From: Flavobacterium lacustre
GTDB lineage: Bacteria; Bacteroidota; Bacteroidia; Flavobacteriales; Flavobacteriaceae
DNA length: 64,000 nt
Assembly (NCBI RefSeq): GCF_027474525.2
Contig: NZ_CP114882.2
Location: 3,100,001 to 3,164,000, forward strand
Reading direction: 5' to 3'
In this document: positions 49,804 to 56,798 of the stretch, in pieces
Layout of the letters: the number at the start of each line of letters is the position of its first letter
How positions within the stretch are numbered: position 1 is the first letter of the stretch
Position numbers and translations under genes: made by a program
Notes under the pieces: model-generated
Told to the model about the DNA's origin: nothing
The model's input: the letters and a program-made list of their open reading frames with translations, nothing else
The model's database searches: none

Positions 49804-50559
49804 ATGGCTAAATTAAATGGGATCTTAAAGATCGAGGGTACGTTAGATAATCTAACGTTTTACAAAAGTGGTGACGGACATATGGTTCGTACCAAAGGGG
49901 GTGTTTCTAAGAAACGAATTCTGAATGATCCTGCGTTTATTCGAACACGTGAAAACGGAGCAGAATTTGGAAAAAGTGCCAATGCCGGCAAAATGTTGCG
50001 TATGGCTGTGGGTCCATTAGTCTTTAAGGCGAAAGATGCAAAGTTATCGAGCAGGCTGTTGCAGCTTATGTCTAAGATTAAGAATCTGGACACTATTTCC
50101 TTACGTGGAGAGCGTAATGTAGCCGAAGGCATCCTGACTGCCGAAGGTCAAATGGCGTTACGCGGTTTTGATTTCAACATTCAAGCGCCGTTGCAAGGGG
50201 TTTTATTTTCCCCTTACACACTAGACACTGTAACTGGAGCCGTTACTATTCCGGATTTGAACCCATCAGAACAGGTTCGCTTTCCTGGCGGTGCAACCCA
50301 TTTCAGTTTGCGCAGTGCATTTGTCAATCTGGATTTTAGCAGCGGGGTGTCAAGTGTAACCTACAGTGATGTAGCTGTTTTAGCGATTGACACCACTATT
50401 GCTACACAAACTATTACTCCTAATGGTGCTCCCGATGGTTCTGCGACGCAGCTTTACCTCTTGTTGATTGAGTTTTATCAAGAAATGAATGGTATTCAGT
50501 ATCCGTTGAAAAATGGCGCTTTCAATGTTTTAAATATACTGGAAGTCGTGAAAAATTAG
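49804..50559 (+). CDS. Unknown protein (251 residues), conserved-looking
   Basis: Not recognised. No signal peptide or membrane helix. The N-terminus MAKLNGILKIEGTLDNLTFY, KSGDGHMVRTKGGVSKKRI and RTRENGAEFGKSANAGKMLRMAV is basic and regular and looks like a conserved domain; the C-terminal half (about 120-251) is beta-rich (LQGVLFSPYTLDTVTGAVTIPDLNP, HFSLRSAFVNLDFSSG). It has a clear promoter and a strong terminator, so it is probably expressed on its own. It has the general look of small flavobacterial proteins of no known role; a structural or phage-related role is possible but unsupported. Confidence 0.75.
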   Translation: MAKLNGILKIEGTLDNLTFYKSGDGHMVRTKGGVSKKRILNDPAFIRTRENGAEFGKSANAGKMLRMAVGPLVFKAKDAKLSSRLLQLMSKIKNLDTISLRGERNVAEGILTAEGQMALRGFDFNIQAPLQGVLFSPYTLDTVTGAVTIPDLNPSEQVRFPGGATHFSLRSAFVNLDFSSGVSSVTYSDVAVLAIDTTIATQTITPNGAPDGSATQLYLLLIEFYQEMNGIQYPLKNGAFNVLNILEVVKN

Positions 50560-50712: not shown

Positions 50713-51780
50713 ATGATGACAAAAGCTAAAAAAGACACCCACCCATTAGCTATCAATATTAGAAAATTTCAACGCTATAACTATAACTATTTTAGTTGCG
50801 AAGAAGTTGTTTTTTTTGAATATCTAGTAGTAAAAGCAAATGCCTTTAAACAAGTTCCTTTTTTTCACAGTAGTGAAACTATTTTTAAAGAAACGGGGAT
50901 CAGAAAACATGCTCTGAAAACCATTATTAAACGTTTTGAGAATTTGAATTATATTTCTATTGAAGTAAAAGGAATGCCAAGAGTAAAGTATTTCACTGTT
51001 CATTATCCCAAAATACAAGCCGATTTGGAGCACATTTATCTATTGGAGGATAACGGTAAACCTTTGTATGAATTCAGACAACTATTAGCTGAATTCTTTC
51101 TTCCTTTGGTTGATACCTATCAAGAAAAGAATATTATAAAGAATATTAATAAAGAAAATAAAAAAGAAAATGATGACGGATTATCAGATATGGATACGCA
51201 AAAATTAAAAAATTTTAATTCTACCCTCTCTTCTTTAAAATTAAAACTAGAATTAACTCCTTCGCAATATAGCTATAATGATATGGATGTCTTAAGGGCA
51301 TTAAGGGAATACACCGCCGACGAAGTAGTTTACTATTTAGAAAAATATTATAAAAAGGGGGCTCAAAAAAAATTAAACGGCTTTTTAAAATTTGATGATT
51401 TGGCCCCTGAAAAATTAGTATTTATAGAAGAAGAAAAAATGGAAGAGGAAAAGTTTATCGATTCTTTTATTGCAAAACTTCAAAGCAATTATGATAATCG
51501 TATTAAGTTGCATAATGATGATAAAAAAAATAAACGTGGCAAATCATACACTGCTTTAGTTGTTAATAGAAACATAAGAAAAAAAATAAAAGATGCCTTA
51601 GATAACAAAGGAGAAATAAGCATAACAAATGCTTTTACGGCTTATACCGATGCCGTTTTGAAAGAAATCATCAACCCTGATAAATTTTTACCTTACTTCT
51701 TTTCAACACAATTTGGCGAATATGGTGTTATTGAAACGTATCTTGATTATTTTAATATTCAATATGGTTATGAAAAATAA
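50713..51780 (+). CDS. Winged-helix DNA-binding protein of unknown function
   Basis: About 355 residues. ATG at 50713 is preferred to the in-frame TTG at 50701. Residues about 30-110 form a winged helix (FFEYLVVKANAF, ETIFKETGIRKHALKTIIKRFENLNYISIEVKG, VKYFTVHYPKI), as in plasmid and phage replication initiators and primosome-like proteins. An acidic, asparagine-rich linker (KNINKENKKENDDG) leads to a helical C-terminal half (YNDMDVLRALREYTADEVVYYLEKYY and onward) that I do not recognise. It lies 225 bp before dpnI. A replication or regulatory gene of a mobile element is a fair guess, not a finding. Confidence 0.7.
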   Translation: MMTKAKKDTHPLAINIRKFQRYNYNYFSCEEVVFFEYLVVKANAFKQVPFFHSSETIFKETGIRKHALKTIIKRFENLNYISIEVKGMPRVKYFTVHYPKIQADLEHIYLLEDNGKPLYEFRQLLAEFFLPLVDTYQEKNIIKNINKENKKENDDGLSDMDTQKLKNFNSTLSSLKLKLELTPSQYSYNDMDVLRALREYTADEVVYYLEKYYKKGAQKKLNGFLKFDDLAPEKLVFIEEEKMEEEKFIDSFIAKLQSNYDNRIKLHNDDKKNKRGKSYTALVVNRNIRKKIKDALDNKGEISITNAFTAYTDAVLKEIINPDKFLPYFFSTQFGEYGVIETYLDYFNIQYGYEK

Positions 51781-52005
51781 AAAATAAAAAAAATTAACTC
51801 TCTATATTTTATTTAAGAACTCACTTACAAATACCTAATACTTTTTTAAATAAAAATAGGGCAACTATAGTATTAAAATAGTATTTTTGAGGACTAACAT
51901 AAAGAAATGAAAGCAAAACCTTTTTTAAAATGAATCAGAGTAAAATCTAATTTATTGCTTAAAAGATATTTATAAATCTTTATTTGAAAATAAATTCCAC
52001 TGTTA

Positions 52006-52773
52006 ATGAACTTAAATTTCAATATAGACCTTGCAGAAGGATATAAGAGTAATTCACAAATTGCAAGAGTTTTAACTGAAAATTGGGTTAAAGAAAATTC
52101 ATATTGTCCAAACTGTGGTCAATTACCCTTGAATGATTTTGTTAATAATATGCCTGTTGCAGATTTCTATTGCTTAGGTTGCAAAGAAGAATTTGAATTA
52201 AAAAGTAAAAACGGAAAATTAAGTACTATAATTAATGATGGTGCTTATGAAAGTATGATAAAAAGGATTACTTCGGATACAAATCCCAATTTCTTCTTTT
52301 TGACATATGACAAAAATACGGTTAATAATTTTTTAGTAATTCCAAAACAATTCTTCACTCCAGAAATTATTATCAAACGAAAACCTTTATCTATTACTGC
52401 TAAACGAGCAGGTTGGGTTGGTTGTAATATTGACATATCAAAAGTTCCTGAAAGTGGAAGAATTTTTATTGTTGAAAATTCAAAAATAATTGAACAAGAA
52501 AAAGTACATTTAAAATTAAAAAGCACTGATTTTTTGAAATCTAAAAGTTTAGATGCGAGGGGTTGGATATTGGATATTTTAAATTGTGTTGAAGAAATTA
52601 AAAAGCAAACATTTACATTAGATGAATTGTATGCATTTGAAAATAAATTAAAAATTAAATATCCAAACAATAATCATATCAAAGATAAAATCCGGCAACA
52701 ATTACAATTTTTAAGAGATAAAGGATTAATAGAGTTTAACGGAAGAGGAAATTATAAAAAAATTGAACTATGA
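52006..52773 (+). CDS. dpnI: DpnI-type methyl-directed restriction endonuclease
   Basis: 255 residues that match pneumococcal DpnI along their whole length as I remember it. Catalytic PD-(D/E)xK residues: Asp53 in PVADFYC, Glu64 and Lys66 in EEFELKSK. Zinc-binding cysteines: Cys34, Cys37 (YCPNCG), Cys56 and Cys59 (YCLGC). AGWVGCNIDISKVP is the conserved core; the C-terminal winged helix (about 195-255, NNHIKDKIRQQLQFLRDKGLIEFNGRG) is the second methyl-adenine reader. DpnI cuts GATC only when the adenine is methylated, so a host carrying it must not methylate GATC. The following 67-residue gene overlaps it by four bases. No -7 consensus was found upstream. Confidence 0.95.
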   Translation: MNLNFNIDLAEGYKSNSQIARVLTENWVKENSYCPNCGQLPLNDFVNNMPVADFYCLGCKEEFELKSKNGKLSTIINDGAYESMIKRITSDTNPNFFFLTYDKNTVNNFLVIPKQFFTPEIIIKRKPLSITAKRAGWVGCNIDISKVPESGRIFIVENSKIIEQEKVHLKLKSTDFLKSKSLDARGWILDILNCVEEIKKQTFTLDELYAFENKLKIKYPNNNHIKDKIRQQLQFLRDKGLIEFNGRGNYKKIEL

Positions 52774-52973
52774 AAAAATTTATATTTATATCACCTGAAG
52801 GCTCAACAGAAGCCCCAAACAGTTCATACGAAGTAAACAATATGCAAGTTATAGGAATTGTTGAAGACGTTAACAATGAGGACGAAGCATTAAAAAAACT
52901 TTTGATAGAAAATGAATGGATAATTGACGCCGAATTCAATATTGCCGAATTCATAGTTTATGAAATCTTATAA
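52770..52973 (+). CDS. Small protein translationally coupled to DpnI
   Basis: 67 residues, acidic, no signal or membrane segment: MKKFIFISPEGSTEAPNSSY, then NNMQVIGIVEDVNNEDEALKKLL and ENEWIIDAEFNIAEFIVYEIL. Its ATG overlaps the dpnI stop (ATGA), so it is almost surely translated with it. In Streptococcus pneumoniae the DpnI gene (dpnC) is also followed by a second gene of unknown role (dpnD); the position is parallel, but I see no clear sequence match. It ends tail to tail with the Dam-family gene, with stops interlocked. Function unknown. Confidence 0.8.
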   Translation: MKKFIFISPEGSTEAPNSSYEVNNMQVIGIVEDVNNEDEALKKLLIENEWIIDAEFNIAEFIVYEIL

Positions 52974-53450
52974 TTTTAAAACCAAAAATCTACCTTCAAT
53001 ACCAGAATTTTTTAAAGCTAAAGCATTCTCTTTTCCATATGCAATTAAAACACTTGGAGCAACCGGCCTTCCGCTTTGTATTCCAAATACGTCATAGAAT
53101 CTAATTCTTCCCTTAACAAATAAAATAGCATTCGCATCATTCCAAATATGTTCAAAAAAATATTTAGTTTCAGTTCTTGCATAAATTAATGCTATTCCAT
53201 TTCCGTGATTTTTTAATTTTTCCATCCATAATTCCATTCCTTTACCATAAGGAGGATTTAGATAAACTCTACCAAACCAATCTTTTGATAAACCATCATC
53301 AGAAATTGTAAAATTATTTTTTGCGTGTAAAAATGGAGCGTTGATAGGACTACACGGGTCTAAATCAAATTTTCCTAATTGAATCACCAATTCAGGTGGT
53401 GTTAACCATTCAACCGTAGTATTTTCAGAGCGTTCAAAAGAAGTATCCAT
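52968..53450 (-). CDS. Phage-type DNA N6-adenine methyltransferase (Dam family)
   Basis: 160 residues, the whole length of the phage Dam domain. VEWLTPPELVIQLGKFDLDPC holds the SAM-binding region, LNPPYGKG (Asn65-Tyr68) is catalytic motif IV, and KNHGNGIALIYARTETKYFFEHIWN and SGRPVAPSVLIAYG complete the domain. No internal stop or gap, so it looks intact. Phage T1-like members methylate GATC, but this family varies, and several members have other or relaxed specificity. It faces the dpnI pair tail to tail. If it did methylate GATC while DpnI is active, the chromosome would be cut, so either specificity or expression must differ. Confidence 0.88.
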   Translation of the reverse strand: MDTSFERSENTTVEWLTPPELVIQLGKFDLDPCSPINAPFLHAKNNFTISDDGLSKDWFGRVYLNPPYGKGMELWMEKLKNHGNGIALIYARTETKYFFEHIWNDANAILFVKGRIRFYDVFGIQSGRPVAPSVLIAYGKENALALKNSGIEGRFLVLKL

Positions 53451-53535
53451 AACAATGATTTTAATTGTTCAAAGAAATAGATAAAAAAAATACTGGACAA
53501 CCCACAATAAGTGTGATTCTGTTAATTTTTTATAA

Positions 53536-54642
53536 TCTGTAAACAAAGGTAATTGGGACAAATCAGAAGGGTTTGATTTTATCAATACTTTCAATAGAAA
53601 TTGGTTGAAATTGGTGCGTGATAAAATGAAAGACGATGGAACCATTTGGATAAGTGGCACCTACCATAACATTTTTTCCATTGGGCAAATCTTGCAAGAA
53701 TTGGATTTTAAAATCTTAAATGTTATCACTTGGGAAAAGAATAATCCACCGCCTAATTTTTCGTGTCGGTTTTTTACCCATTCTACAGAGTTGATTATTT
53801 GGGCAAGGAAGAAAGAAAAAGTGCCGCATTATTATAACTATGAGTTAATGAAAAAACTCAACGGCGACAAGCAAATGAAAGATGTTTGGAAATTGCCTGC
53901 TATTGCTCGTTGGGAAAAGTCGTGTGGCAAACATCCGACACAAAAACCTTTATCGGTATTAACTCGAATCATTTTAGCTTCAACAAAACCTGGCGCTTGG
54001 ATATTAGACCCTTTTGCAGGAAGTTCTACTACAGGAATAGCCGCTAATTTATCCAACAGGCGGTATTTAGGAATTGATATGGAAACTGAATTTCTTGAAA
54101 TAAGTAAAAACAGAAAACTTGAAATTGAAGACGAAAACATAGCAACCACTTATCGACAAAAAATAAATGGTTTTGAGGATAAGAAACAATTGCAATTCTA
54201 TTTAGCTGAAGAAGCTAAACCAAAAGAAAAAGTTGCACTAGGATATATAAGAAGTAAAGATTTAACTAAATTAAAAACGCTAAACACCTTTTATTTTCAT
54301 TCCACCGACAAACAAAATAATTTTCTGAATTTTCCTTATGATTTATACAATGCCGGTAAACTAGTTATTTATTCTGGTGGTCGTTCTAAACCTTTTCATT
54401 TAACTTCCTATTTTGGCGAAATTGAATCCATACAACACAAGCATAAATCAAAGATAAAAGGCAAAGAAAAATCTGAAACAGCATACTATTTTGAAGTCAA
54501 ACTGAAAGCCAATTTTTCTGAAAATATTTCAATAGAAAATAATCCCAACATCAAAAAATGGATAAAGGACTATAGGGATGAATATGAATTAAAATCGGTA
54601 AACTATTTACCCGTATTGACTTTTACCGAGAATGTTTTTTGA
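53536..54642 (+). pseudogene. 5'-truncated DpnA-like (beta-class) DNA adenine methyltransferase with a C-terminal extension
   Basis: Open frame after a stop at 53533-53535; no good start codon until ATG at 53626. The first codons (SVNKGNWDKS, then DFINTFNRNWLKL) already match the middle of pneumococcal DpnA (M2.DpnII), and the match continues through GTIWISGTYHNIFSIG, FSCRFFTHSTELIIWARK, KQMKDVWKLP, KHPTQKPLSVLTRIILAS and SAM motif I DPFAGSSTTG. The N-terminal part with catalytic motif IV (DPPY) is absent, and the upstream bases show no remnant. About 165 further residues (from about 54170) form an extension absent from DpnA. Without motif IV it should be inactive. A relic of a GATC methylation system beside DpnI. 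Confidence 0.85.
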
Positions 54643-54858
54643 AAAAACGGGGTAAAAATGAATCTTTTATCCTTAACTATATCGTCCTATTAGCAGAAAA
54701 GCGTTTTAAAATGGAGCGTTAAATTCAAACCTTATTTGGAAAAACCTTTCTAAATCAAGGCATCTACATTTGCTGTAATCGCAAATTAAGTTTGGGCTAA
54801 AGCGCGTTTAAGTTCACCTCCTTCAACTACAATACATCAGTAGTCCCAAAATAAATAA

Positions 54859-54895
54859 AGCCTTTTACGGAAAACCGTAAAGTGGCTCTTTTATT
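54859..54895 (+). terminator. Terminator-like hairpin after the methyltransferase relic
   Basis: TTTACGG / CCGTAAA (54864-54870 / 54875-54881) with an outer AGCC / GGCT closing helix and a T-rich tail. Confidence 0.5.
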
Positions 54896-54937
54896 TTAGG
54901 TTAAGTTTGAATACTATTAATTTAAAACTTACAAAAA

Positions 54938-55666
54938 ATGAAAAAATGGACTATTGTATTACTTATTATTATTTTATTAGTTCCCAAACAATCTAAAGCT
55001 CAAAATAATGGTGCAGCTGCGGCAGTAGCTGTTGGTGCAGGTCTTCTGGCTATTGGTGCAGGAATTGCTGCGGTTGAAGATATGAAAGAAAGAGCCGAAT
55101 TGACCGCTACCCAATGGGTTTTAGCCAATAATCCTGAACTAAATAGTTTTTCATTGAAAACACTTGATTTCAATGGCAAAAAAACAAAAGATATGTCGGC
55201 AACGTCGGTTATTTCTTTTAAAATACAAGAATTTAATCCAACAGATAATCCATAGCTTGATGGCAAAAAACAGGTGTTACTCGCTTTTACCAGCTATGGT
55301 TGGATTAGTGACCAAGGCATTGACTTTAACAAAGTAAGTTGGTATTTGATAGATAGTACCGAATGGCTGAATATGATGGTAGCCTACGCAAAAGTATCTT
55401 CTAAAGAAAAAAACGAGACCATTCTCAAAGAGGCATTAAGTAATGGTGTTGTTGTGAATAAAGGAATAAAAGCAAAAGGCAAATCTGAAATTCCATTTTT
55501 TAAATTAGAAGGCGATATGTATTTAGTAACCGATTATTCTTCGGAAATGAAATTAATTTATAATGAAAAAACACTAGGTATATTTTTAAAAAATACAGGG
55601 AATTTAGTTCAAATGGGAAGAACTGCCGTTATTGATACTCATGAGTTCTTATTTCAAAAAAACTAG
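54938..55666 (+). pseudogene. Small secreted protein gene interrupted by an in-frame TAG
   Basis: One 242-codon frame broken by a single TAG at 55253-55255. Before it: signal peptide (MKKWTIVLLIIILLVPKQSK), a glycine/alanine-rich hydrophobic stretch (AAAAVAVGAGLLAIGAGIAAVEDM), then ELTATQWVLANNPELNSFSLKTLDF. After it the frame continues without shift: LDGKKQVLLAFTSYGWISDQGIDFNKVSWYLID, ending THEFLFQKN. The codon may have been CAG (Gln), one substitution away. Not recognised as a known family. It could be a true nonsense mutation, a sequencing error, or (least likely) read-through. The palindrome array starts four bases after its end. Confidence 0.75.
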
Positions 55667-55670
55667 TATC

Positions 55671-56177
55671 TACAAAATGTGCCGAGCCGATGGTTCTACA
55701 AAATGTATCGAACCAATGGTTCTACAAAATGTATCGAGCCGATGGCTCTACAAAATGTGTCGAGCCGATGGCTCTACAAAATATATCGAACCAATGGCTC
55801 TACAAAATGTATCGAACCAATGGTTCTACAAAATGTATCGAGATGGTTTTACAATATATATCGAGCCGATGGCTCTACAAAATGTATCGAACCAATGGTT
55901 CTACAAAATATATCGAACCAATGGTTCTACAAAATGTATCGAGCCGATGGTTCTACAAAATGTATCGAGCCAATGGCTCTGCAAAATGTATCGAGCCAAT
56001 GGCTCTACAAAATGTATCGAACCAATGGTTCTACAAAATATATCGAACCGATGGTTCTACAAAATGTATCGAACCAATGGCTCTGTAGCACGAAGCCTGT
56101 GAGTCGACTGGACTGAAGTCCAGCCTTACAAAATGTATCGAACCGATGGTTCTACAAATATATCGAGCCGATGGCTC
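55671..56177. repeat. 26-bp palindromic tandem array with covarying stem arms
   Basis: About 18 units of period 26. Each unit is a spacer TACAAAATGTATC (itself with TACA / TGTA arms) plus a 13-bp palindrome of the form GARCCRATGGYTC. The third base of the left arm and its partner change together: GAGCC with GGCTC, GAACC with GGTTC. Of the 17 full units by my reading, 13 have matched arms, two have a G-T pair and two an A-C mismatch; one unit (near 55842) is degenerate. Array interrupted at 56084-56126. The absence of unique spacers excludes CRISPR. It lies between the broken secreted gene and the tyrosine transposase. Confidence 0.9.
56084..56126. repeat. Different palindrome inserted in the array
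   Basis: A 43-bp stretch between array units contains the perfect palindrome CTGGACTGAAGTCCAG (56108-56123). It belongs to a different repeat family from its surroundings; array units resume at once after it. Confidence 0.7.
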
Positions 56178-56196
56178 TTTATAACTAACATGAATA

Positions 56197-56330
56197 AAAG
56201 TCCTGTAAGGACGACACGTCTTGTAGCAACGGATTTTAATCCGTTGAAATAATAATAAAACAAATATAAAAGTCCCGTAGGGACGTCACATTTTGAAATA
56301 ACGGATTTTAATCCGTTGGAATAATAAAAT
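56197..56330. repeat. Two copies of a 60-70-bp unit with two palindromes each
   Basis: Each copy has GTCCTGTAAGGAC (56200-56212) or GTCCCGTAGGGAC (56272-56284), followed by AACGGATTTTAATCCGTT (56228-56245 and 56300-56317). Again an arm difference is compensated: CCT with AGG, CCC with GGG. They lie immediately before the tyrosine transposase, as REP-like elements often do. Confidence 0.8.
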
Positions 56331-56336
56331 TATAAT

Positions 56337-56798
56337 ATGGCAAACACCTACCATCAAGTATATTTACAAGCTGTTTTTGCTGTAAAATATAGAAAAGCAG
56401 TTCTACACAAAGATTGGCGGAAAGCAGTTTTTGGTGTCATTGGAAATCTAATTAATGAAACGGGGTGTAAAACGATTATTGTCAATGGTGTTGAAGATCA
56501 TGTACATTGCTTTTTAGGATTAAAACCAACGGTTTCAATTTCAGAATTAATGAAGACCGTAAAAGCAAAATCATCAAAATATATTAATGATAACCAACTA
56601 CTTTTAGATCGTTTTGAATGGCAAGAAGGTTATGCCATTTTTTCTTATAGCCATTCTCATATTGACAATGTATATCAATATATTGCTAATCAGGAAGCAC
56701 ACCACAAAAAAGAAACTTTCAAAAAGGAATACTTAGAATTTTTAAATAAGTTTGAAATTCAGTTTGACCAGCGTTATACCTTTAAAGAGTTAACGTAG
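56337..56798 (+). CDS. IS200/REP-associated tyrosine transposase (RAYT)
   Basis: 153 residues, the length of a Y1-transposase domain. The HUH metal-binding motif is HVHCFLGL (near residue 62-69) and the catalytic tyrosine is expected in YAIFSYSHSHIDNVYQYIANQEAHHKKETF. The closing FLNKFEIQFDQRYTFKEL is typical of the Bacteroidota IS200-like/REP-associated group. Such enzymes nick single-stranded hairpins and are thought to spread the palindromes near them. No left or right IS end pair was identified, and the gene seems to be a domesticated or solitary copy beside its hairpins. Confidence 0.9.
   Translation: MANTYHQVYLQAVFAVKYRKAVLHKDWRKAVFGVIGNLINETGCKTIIVNGVEDHVHCFLGLKPTVSISELMKTVKAKSSKYINDNQLLLDRFEWQEGYAIFSYSHSHIDNVYQYIANQEAHHKKETFKKEYLEFLNKFEIQFDQRYTFKELT

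Follow-up and report, generated by a model that had tools for sequence, protein, structure and literature searches.

Introduction

How does a bacterial cell avoid cutting its own DNA when a DpnI-type endonuclease, which acts on methylated GATC, is paired with a conserved methylase of the Dam family? This odd pairing is found in Flavobacterium lacustre, in a window of 64,000 nucleotides that was analyzed as a whole (positions 3100001-3164000 of a single-contig genome of 3.45 Mb). A reading made earlier from the letters of the window (hereafter, the sequence-only reading) had described the place as DpnI next to an intact Dam and a GATC-methyltransferase relic. The locus is better described as a cassette of DpnI, a small gene termed orf67, and the Dam-family gene, labeled Dam869 here, in a former DpnII-type operon; orf67 and an eight-codon scar of a first methylase gene, M1, were absent from the earlier description. 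Comparison with related loci suggests that a GATC-methylating restriction operon has flipped to its opposite, with the nuclease swapped for a cutter of methylated DNA and the methylases broken at the joints. DpnI, orf67 and the convergent PF05869 methylase appear to have displaced the DpnII-type endonuclease (R) of an operon with the order M1 - R - M2, M2 being a second methylase gene. The answer that we favor is that a methyl-directed cassette took the place of this endonuclease and that, in normal growth, Dam869 produces nothing for DpnI to cut; the probability of this reading as a whole is put at roughly 0.55.

Components of the Cassette

The DpnI gene is intact, as had been claimed. Both of its Pfam domains were matched at full length and above their cut-offs (PF06044, E 1e-80, 270.2 bits; PF17726, E 4e-35, 120.4 bits), PADLOC assigned it to mREase_II (1e-116), and its alignment with R.DpnI (4esj; E 1e-105) ran from one end to the other, with conservation of the PVADFYC...EEFELKSK stretch. 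Its median ratio of nonsynonymous to synonymous divergence (dN/dS) was 0.14 among 24 cassette copies (155 of 276 pairs with dS 0.1-2). FcyTI, a Flavobacterium DpnI homolog, was reported to cut Gm6ATC oligonucleotides and to give no product from unmethylated ones (excerpted text of PMC11037411).

The full-length phage-type Dam likewise held up: Dam869 scored 40.2 bits against PF05869 (cut-off 28.1), retains the NPPY motif, and is the sole PF05869 match in its genome. Against the TIGR01712 model phage_N6A_met, it remained below the curated cut-off (27.6 versus 97.05 bits). Median dN/dS for Dam869 was 0.10 (28 copies; 224 of 378 pairs with dS 0.1-2), which indicates strong purifying selection. 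Among 29 cassette copies examined, from which the fragments at L014 and L028 were left out as too broken, 27 have an ATG start, NPPY and 158-160 codons, and NPPY is kept in 28, the window copy included. The copy at L085 has no ATG at the usual place, and that at L074 has a stop after 14 codons. Dam869 as an inert pseudogene or decoy, put forward in the sequence-only reading as a "silent" or "decoy" Dam, is rejected by the dN/dS and the retained NPPY. TAnnTTTG promoter-like boxes stand upstream of DpnI, at a distance of no more than 250 bases, in 12 of 19 copies, and upstream of Dam869, no more than 120 bases away, in 8 of 29; these counts have no background control and were not used.

The third gene, orf67, had no match in Pfam, NCBIfam, PHROG or PADLOC. 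It has 14 invariant columns across 16 copies, one of them from a locus without Dam869, and a median dN/dS of 0.13 (28 copies; 149 of 378 pairs with dS 0.1-2). It lies tail to tail with Dam869, and their stop codons overlap by 6 bases in the window; the distance between the two stops was -9 to +16 bases in 26 of the 27 copies in which Dam869 is intact and orf67 is present, and 649 bases in the remaining one (L015).

The pneumococcal DpnI cassette is dpnC-dpnD, an alternative to DpnII. The window's cassette resembles it in having a DpnI-type nuclease followed by a small overlapping open reading frame (ORF), and in that DpnI and DpnII types are alternatives. It differs in its small ORF and in the added PF05869 methylase: the identification of orf67 as DpnD/PcfM (PF14207) was not supported, as no Pfam match was obtained and profile comparison with DpnD-like ORFs gave a probability of 2%. 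Furthermore, the pneumococcal cassettes are replaced as wholes, whereas remnants of M1 and M2 flank the cassette of the window (Table 1).

Table 1. Features of the locus, with positions counted from the first nucleotide of the window.
Feature	Position	Strand	Basis or remark
M1 scar, 5' end of a D12-class methylase gene (MKAKPFLK, then stop)	51907..51933	+	
DpnI-type methyl-directed endonuclease, intact	52006..52773	+	255 residues; Pfam, PADLOC, alignment to R.DpnI
orf67, partner of Dam869	52770..52973	+	67 residues; overlaps the DpnI stop
Dam869, intact phage-type adenine methylase (PF05869)	52968..53450	-	160 residues; convergent with orf67
M2 relic, beta-class (CcrM/DpnA-like) methylase without residues 1-55, including DPPY	53536..54642	+	homology onset at 53536

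Recurrence of the Module across Genomes

The same gene order was sought in other flavobacteria, and the DpnI-orf67-Dam869 module recurs in many genomes; Dam869 thus belongs to the island in relatives also, so that the refuting case named in the sequence-only reading, a Dam with no tie to the island there, does not apply. Sixty-nine DpnI loci were found in genome_contigs by using patterns made from the window's DpnI, for which reason near kin are over-represented among them. Dam869 stands beside DpnI in 21 of the 69, in several Bacteroidota groups, always in the same orientation and after orf67, which all 21 possess (one of these copies, at L014, is a remnant, and two, at L028 and L074, are broken). 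Four loci have orf67 without Dam869 (L018, which is cut at the contig end, L021, L063 and L065). No Dam869 was seen in those of the 69 loci that carry a DpnD-like ORF, some of which end early.

In the genus, 17 of 299 genomes gave a Dam869 match, 14 of them at 73% identity or more. The neighbors in these 14 were orf67 and DpnI in 10, orf67 and a PLD-winged-helix nuclease in 2, orf67 and an unrelated nuclease-like gene in 1 (L086), and neither in 1. Dam869 occurred in 9 of 17 genus genomes with a DpnI-type winged helix versus 1 of 182 without (Fisher 2e-10, on the assumption that the 199 genomes scanned for the winged helix fall within the 299 searched for Dam869). In the phylum, 13 of 395 genomes matched; four matches at 77% or more stand beside orf67 and DpnI (one DpnI being frameshifted), and the remaining nine, at 51% or less, have no orf67 or DpnI neighbors within about 1.5 kb. 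The cassette closest to that of the window is L047 (Dam869 92%, orf67 96%); this Flavobacterium limicola locus (L047 / L099) has a frameshifted DpnI with intact Dam869 and orf67. The proteins of L023 and L087 are identical and probably come from one genome.

In a tree of 46 proteins, 28 cassette copies formed a single clade (100/100) beside enzymes of phages and mobile elements. At L088 (215-1000) and L091 (2181-2972, minus), DpnI's place is taken by a PLD-type nuclease with a DpnI winged helix (PF13091 and PF17726), of the kind described in the excerpted text of PMC11037411. At L086 (2194-2934, minus), it is taken by a 247-residue nuclease-like protein beside orf67, Dam869 and a clipped D12 gene. 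This protein has 3673 relatives; PF27126 is present in all 120 relatives listed, one of which is named HTH HARE-type, and a search of 199 genus genomes at E <= 1e-20 detected the gene in one. The Dam869 copies of L088 and L091 group inside the cassette clade, with those of L016 (99/92) and L044 (93/83), respectively, as does the L086 copy. Since PLD-linked copies group with DpnI-linked ones, the nuclease was evidently swapped, and orf67 and Dam869 were retained. Many cassettes in nature combine this methylase and small partner with different nucleases, which makes a direct test of the coexistence of a Dam-family methylase with DpnI possible.

Relatives of Dam869 occur in phages and in a conjugative transposon, and 427 of 50,697 phage records matched it. 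At L225, on a plasmid record from Parabacteroides, the annotated traK and traM of a conjugative transposon flank a gene that shares 44.7% identity with Dam869. In viral_contigs, relatives were found at 4 loci at 44-56% identity, and none of 15 DpnI pattern matches was confirmed; a cassette carried on a virus was rejected on these grounds. With such relatives common in phages, a prophage methylase might have landed beside DpnI by accident. We regard this as very remote, because Dam869 follows orf67 in the same orientation in nearly a third of the DpnI loci, across several Bacteroidota groups, forms one clade, and has distances that co-vary with those of DpnI (Mantel r 0.50) and orf67 (0.65; 0 of 2000 permutations for both). 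Prophage carry-over was likewise rejected, in view of the recurrence, single clade and conserved layout.

Remnants of a DpnII-Type Operon

The gene order of MboI is M1 (D12) - R (PF04556) - M2 (beta class). The M1 scar and M2 relic of the window derive from an operon of this DpnII/MboI type, from which the window differs in having no endonuclease and two broken methylases; no system of intact M1, endonuclease and M2 is present in it. The genome as a whole gave no match to the D12 family or to the PF04556 DpnII endonuclease, and two to PF01555, one of which is the M2 relic. Short M1 stretches similar to the scar lie upstream of DpnI in L009, L011, L016 and L047, and none was found in L010.

The M2 relic is a beta-class N6/N4 methylase (PF01555, E 4e-49). 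Because it aligns with residues 56-423 of an intact 423-residue ortholog (83% identity) without a stop or frameshift, its N-terminus was cleanly removed, DPPY included; the first ATG/GTG/TTG start is at 53605, giving an ORF at 53605-54642 (+). Of the earlier description of a DpnA-like enzyme without motif IV, the loss of the motif stands, and the likeness needs qualification, as the nearest solved structure is CcrM, followed by DpnA. That the gene is a methylase relic is likewise sound, and the sole support for its putative GATC specificity comes from intact orthologs beside DpnII endonucleases.

These orthologs point to the origin of the locus. In the genus, 12 of 249 genomes have an M2 that is free of stops and covers at least 273 of the 280 query residues, and the loci of 10 of these, plus an eleventh (G341), were enlarged. 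In L141, L144, L145 and L148, genes for a D12 methylase, a DpnII endonuclease (PF04556) and M2 follow one another in the same orientation, with an extra large ORF between endonuclease and M2 in three of them; L147 has the D12 - DpnII - M2 layout as judged by eye. In L142 and L149, other genes separate D12 from M2, one L142 gene being weakly PD-(D/E)XK-like. L146 and L150 have similar-looking genes beside M2 and no D12 match in the stretch examined, and L143 and L219 (G341) have DpnI with a DpnD-like ORF. Because M1 - [DpnII or DpnI] - M2 loci exist, DpnI and DpnII share one place in the gene order, as judged by the same M1 and M2 on either side, and because relatives carry M1 - DpnII - M2 there, the DpnI cassette would have supplanted the nuclease in an operon of the DpnII/MboI type. 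No mention of the locus having arisen from M1-R-M2 was found in the excerpted text of PMC11037411.

The earlier statement that DpnI and DpnII are alternatives was also borne out when 24 genomes, selected for carrying DpnI, Dam869 or both, were searched in full: 23 of them have no DpnII endonuclease. The exception, G568 (L215), has an M1 - DpnII - M2 locus with Dam869 downstream, beside an IS200-type-transposase-like protein, and no DpnI in the 10 kb read.

The joints of the exchange can be seen in the flanking methylase genes. The C-terminal end of D12 (RGKLTELLI or RGELNELLI) is kept in all seven aligned loci with DpnII or other middle genes (L141, L142, L144, L145, L147, L148 and L149) and in G568. 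The full end is present in none of 15 DpnI loci that were aligned and have a long D12 (L020 and L154 being one locus); L071 keeps part of it. The end is also lost in L156, where the L086 nuclease-like gene comes next. At further DpnI loci, less of D12 remains, from 190 residues (L003) down to about 20 matched residues (L027). An M2 ORF is present in 28 of the genome_contigs DpnI loci, with DPPY in six (L036, L038, L042, L050, L066 and L072), and DPPY is also kept in L143 and L219; in the Dam869 loci that have an M2 ORF it is found in 0 of 11. Broken, frameshifted methylases beside such nucleases were noted earlier for two examples (excerpted text of PMC11037411).

The near-complete D12 genes beside DpnI at other loci might be taken to mean that DpnI homologs here no longer need or recognize Gm6ATC, in which case a GATC-specific Dam869 would cause no conflict. 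We consider this quite improbable, given that M1 is absent, fragmentary or clipped in the aligned DpnI loci, that both DpnI domains are similar end to end to R.DpnI, and that the homolog FcyTI showed the methyl-dependent cutting described above.

Regarding the arms, the window's M2 is nominally closest to that of L033 (90.6%), followed by the intact M2 of L144 (90.1%), with L047 ninth (88.7%), these differences being small. Between the window and L047, dS was 1.59 in M2 and 0.53 in Dam869. The cassette and the M2 arm seem to have different histories, as would be expected if recombination in the arms exchanges cassettes.

GATC Frequency

GATC sites had been said to occur normally in the window. 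This does not hold: 103 were observed versus 193 expected (0.53), and in 300 kb of the same genome (20 stretches) the ratio was 0.45, the lowest together with CTAG. The longest GATC-free gap of the window, 50898-56496, spans the island. By synonymous-codon shuffling, GATC ratios were 0.53 for the genome's own ORFs, 0.38 for the flanks of 16 cassette loci, 0.09 for DpnI and 0.23 for Dam869, the last being also low in GTAC (0.34) and AGCT (0.46). The extra depletion of the cassette over its flanks (P about 0.01, with copies that are not independent) is weak evidence because the copies are related. GATC avoidance was thus not upheld as a signal of the cassette in particular: a large part is shared by the whole genome, and the surplus is no more than suggestive. 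The general depletion would be accounted for if enzymes that cut GATC had long acted on the lineage.

The GATC-poor cassette genes bear on another explanation, in which Dam869 would be a GATC methylase that guards a cell formerly of the DpnII type against residual DpnII when the cassette is swapped or transferred, and is later shut off. The same methylase genes flanking DpnI and DpnII loci, the relatives of Dam869 on mobile elements, and its coexistence with an M1 - DpnII - M2 locus in G568 would suit such an antidote. It is improbable nonetheless: so rare an event would hardly maintain the dN/dS of 0.10, a precisely timed shut-off would be needed, the G568 copy has no ATG at the usual position, and the excess of depletion carries the limits just given.

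Specificity of Dam869 and Avoidance of Self-Cutting

The favored reading holds that Dam869 supplies DpnI with no substrate during normal growth, most likely because it has a different target. M.Phi93DAM of lactococcal phage phi93, an NPPY enzyme that matches PF05869 (E 6e-34), was reported to turn DNA DpnII-resistant and DpnI-sensitive (excerpted text of PMC4190342), and PamA of a Staphylococcus prophage, also with NPPY, reportedly makes DNA DpnI-sensitive (excerpted text of PMC12435837). Dam869 shares with M.Phi93DAM the family, the motif and 37% identity over 113 residues. It differs in that M.Phi93DAM is a phage gene with demonstrated GATC activity, Dam869 being a predicted methylase, and in that the two stand on different deep branches with a long branch between. 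Because of this distance, neither GATC nor another site is assignable to Dam869; literature on non-specific methylases yielded no test of its clade. Another site is favored because Dam869 is kept although M1 is absent, fragmentary or clipped in the aligned DpnI loci and M2 has lost DPPY in all 11 Dam869 loci with an M2 ORF. GATC is favored by the family record and the repeated pairing with m6A-reading winged-helix nucleases.

On the favored reading, host GATC would be unmethylated, since no D12 methylase remains and M2 is disarmed, and DpnI would cut incoming Gm6ATC DNA, for example that of phages or plasmids from cells that are Dam+ or of the DpnII type. Dam869 may then be an active methylase, most likely for a non-GATC site, that forms no DpnI substrate in normal growth. 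Phages or conjugative elements, in which enzymes of this kind would protect DNA against restriction, are its possible source, and here it may mark host or cassette DNA against some other nuclease. Cassettes were probably exchanged via homologous recombination in the M1 and M2 remnants.

Several points weigh against this reading. M.Phi93DAM and PamA, two NPPY enzymes, the former of PF05869, are reported to methylate GATC, the core motifs WxTP, LDPC, NPPYG, ARTxT and GRxxF are common to Dam869 and M.Phi93DAM, and nothing positive names a non-GATC site for Dam869. A long-branch warning applies to the deep split of the tree, which makes the depth at which M.Phi93DAM separates less sure than the cassette clade. 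DpnI occurs without an intact Dam869 in L014, L021, L028 and L074, and Dam869 without a working DpnI in L047 and L085 (with no DpnI in view at L085); as some loci keep only one of the two intact, DpnI and Dam869 are not strictly needed by each other. In G319 (L217, 2905-4517), a D12 gene of a different lineage runs directly into DpnI and differs, as judged by eye, just at its last few residues. D12-DpnI adjacency therefore probably arose more than once, and this D12, if active, would conflict with DpnI. Finally, the truncated M2 has no raised dN/dS, and hence its loss is recent, the arm was re-imported, or the remainder is useful.

The repeated pairing with a DpnI-type m6A-sensing winged helix, present in the partner nucleases of 12 of the 14 genus genomes (DpnI or PLD-winged-helix), together with the family precedent for GATC and the purifying selection on Dam869, leads to a different proposal. 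Dam869 could be a GATC methylase that is off in normal growth, perhaps held off by convergent transcription with DpnI-orf67, and is induced by infection, upon which DpnI would cut methylated phage (and host) DNA in an abortive manner. The tightly spaced tail-to-tail ends would fit such a switch, and compaction also yields tight convergent packing. The distant branch of M.Phi93DAM, the persistence of DpnI without an intact Dam869 at some loci, and the retention of Dam869 where M1 and M2 are broken, which suggests that it makes no Gm6ATC, speak against it, and we consider it rather unlikely. The fuller form of the proposal, a two-step defense in which infection-induced Dam869 marks replicating DNA with Gm6ATC for cutting by the winged-helix nuclease of the cassette (DpnI or PLD-type), and orf67 serves as a control protein, is similarly doubtful; if it holds true, one cell would contain the methyl mark together with an enzyme that destroys DNA bearing it. 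In Pgl/BREX systems, methylation would mark DNA for attack in an analogous way, and no PADLOC match to Pgl/Brx was obtained among the six window proteins scanned. Concerning the pairing itself, a PF05869 gene linked to DpnI was not found in the titles and abstract openings of the open-licence PMC papers listed, and the term PF05869 does not occur in the text of PMC11037411.

Neighboring Sequences

Two further features of the window lie outside the cassette. A 251-residue protein is encoded at 49804-50559, and a similar-looking protein stands near the M1/M2 genes in L149 (6124-6891). At 55632-56116, upstream of an IS200-type transposase (Y1_Tnp) at 56337-56798, there are short repeats of the ctacaaaatgtatcgagccgatgg type, which are read as repeated peptides in three frames.

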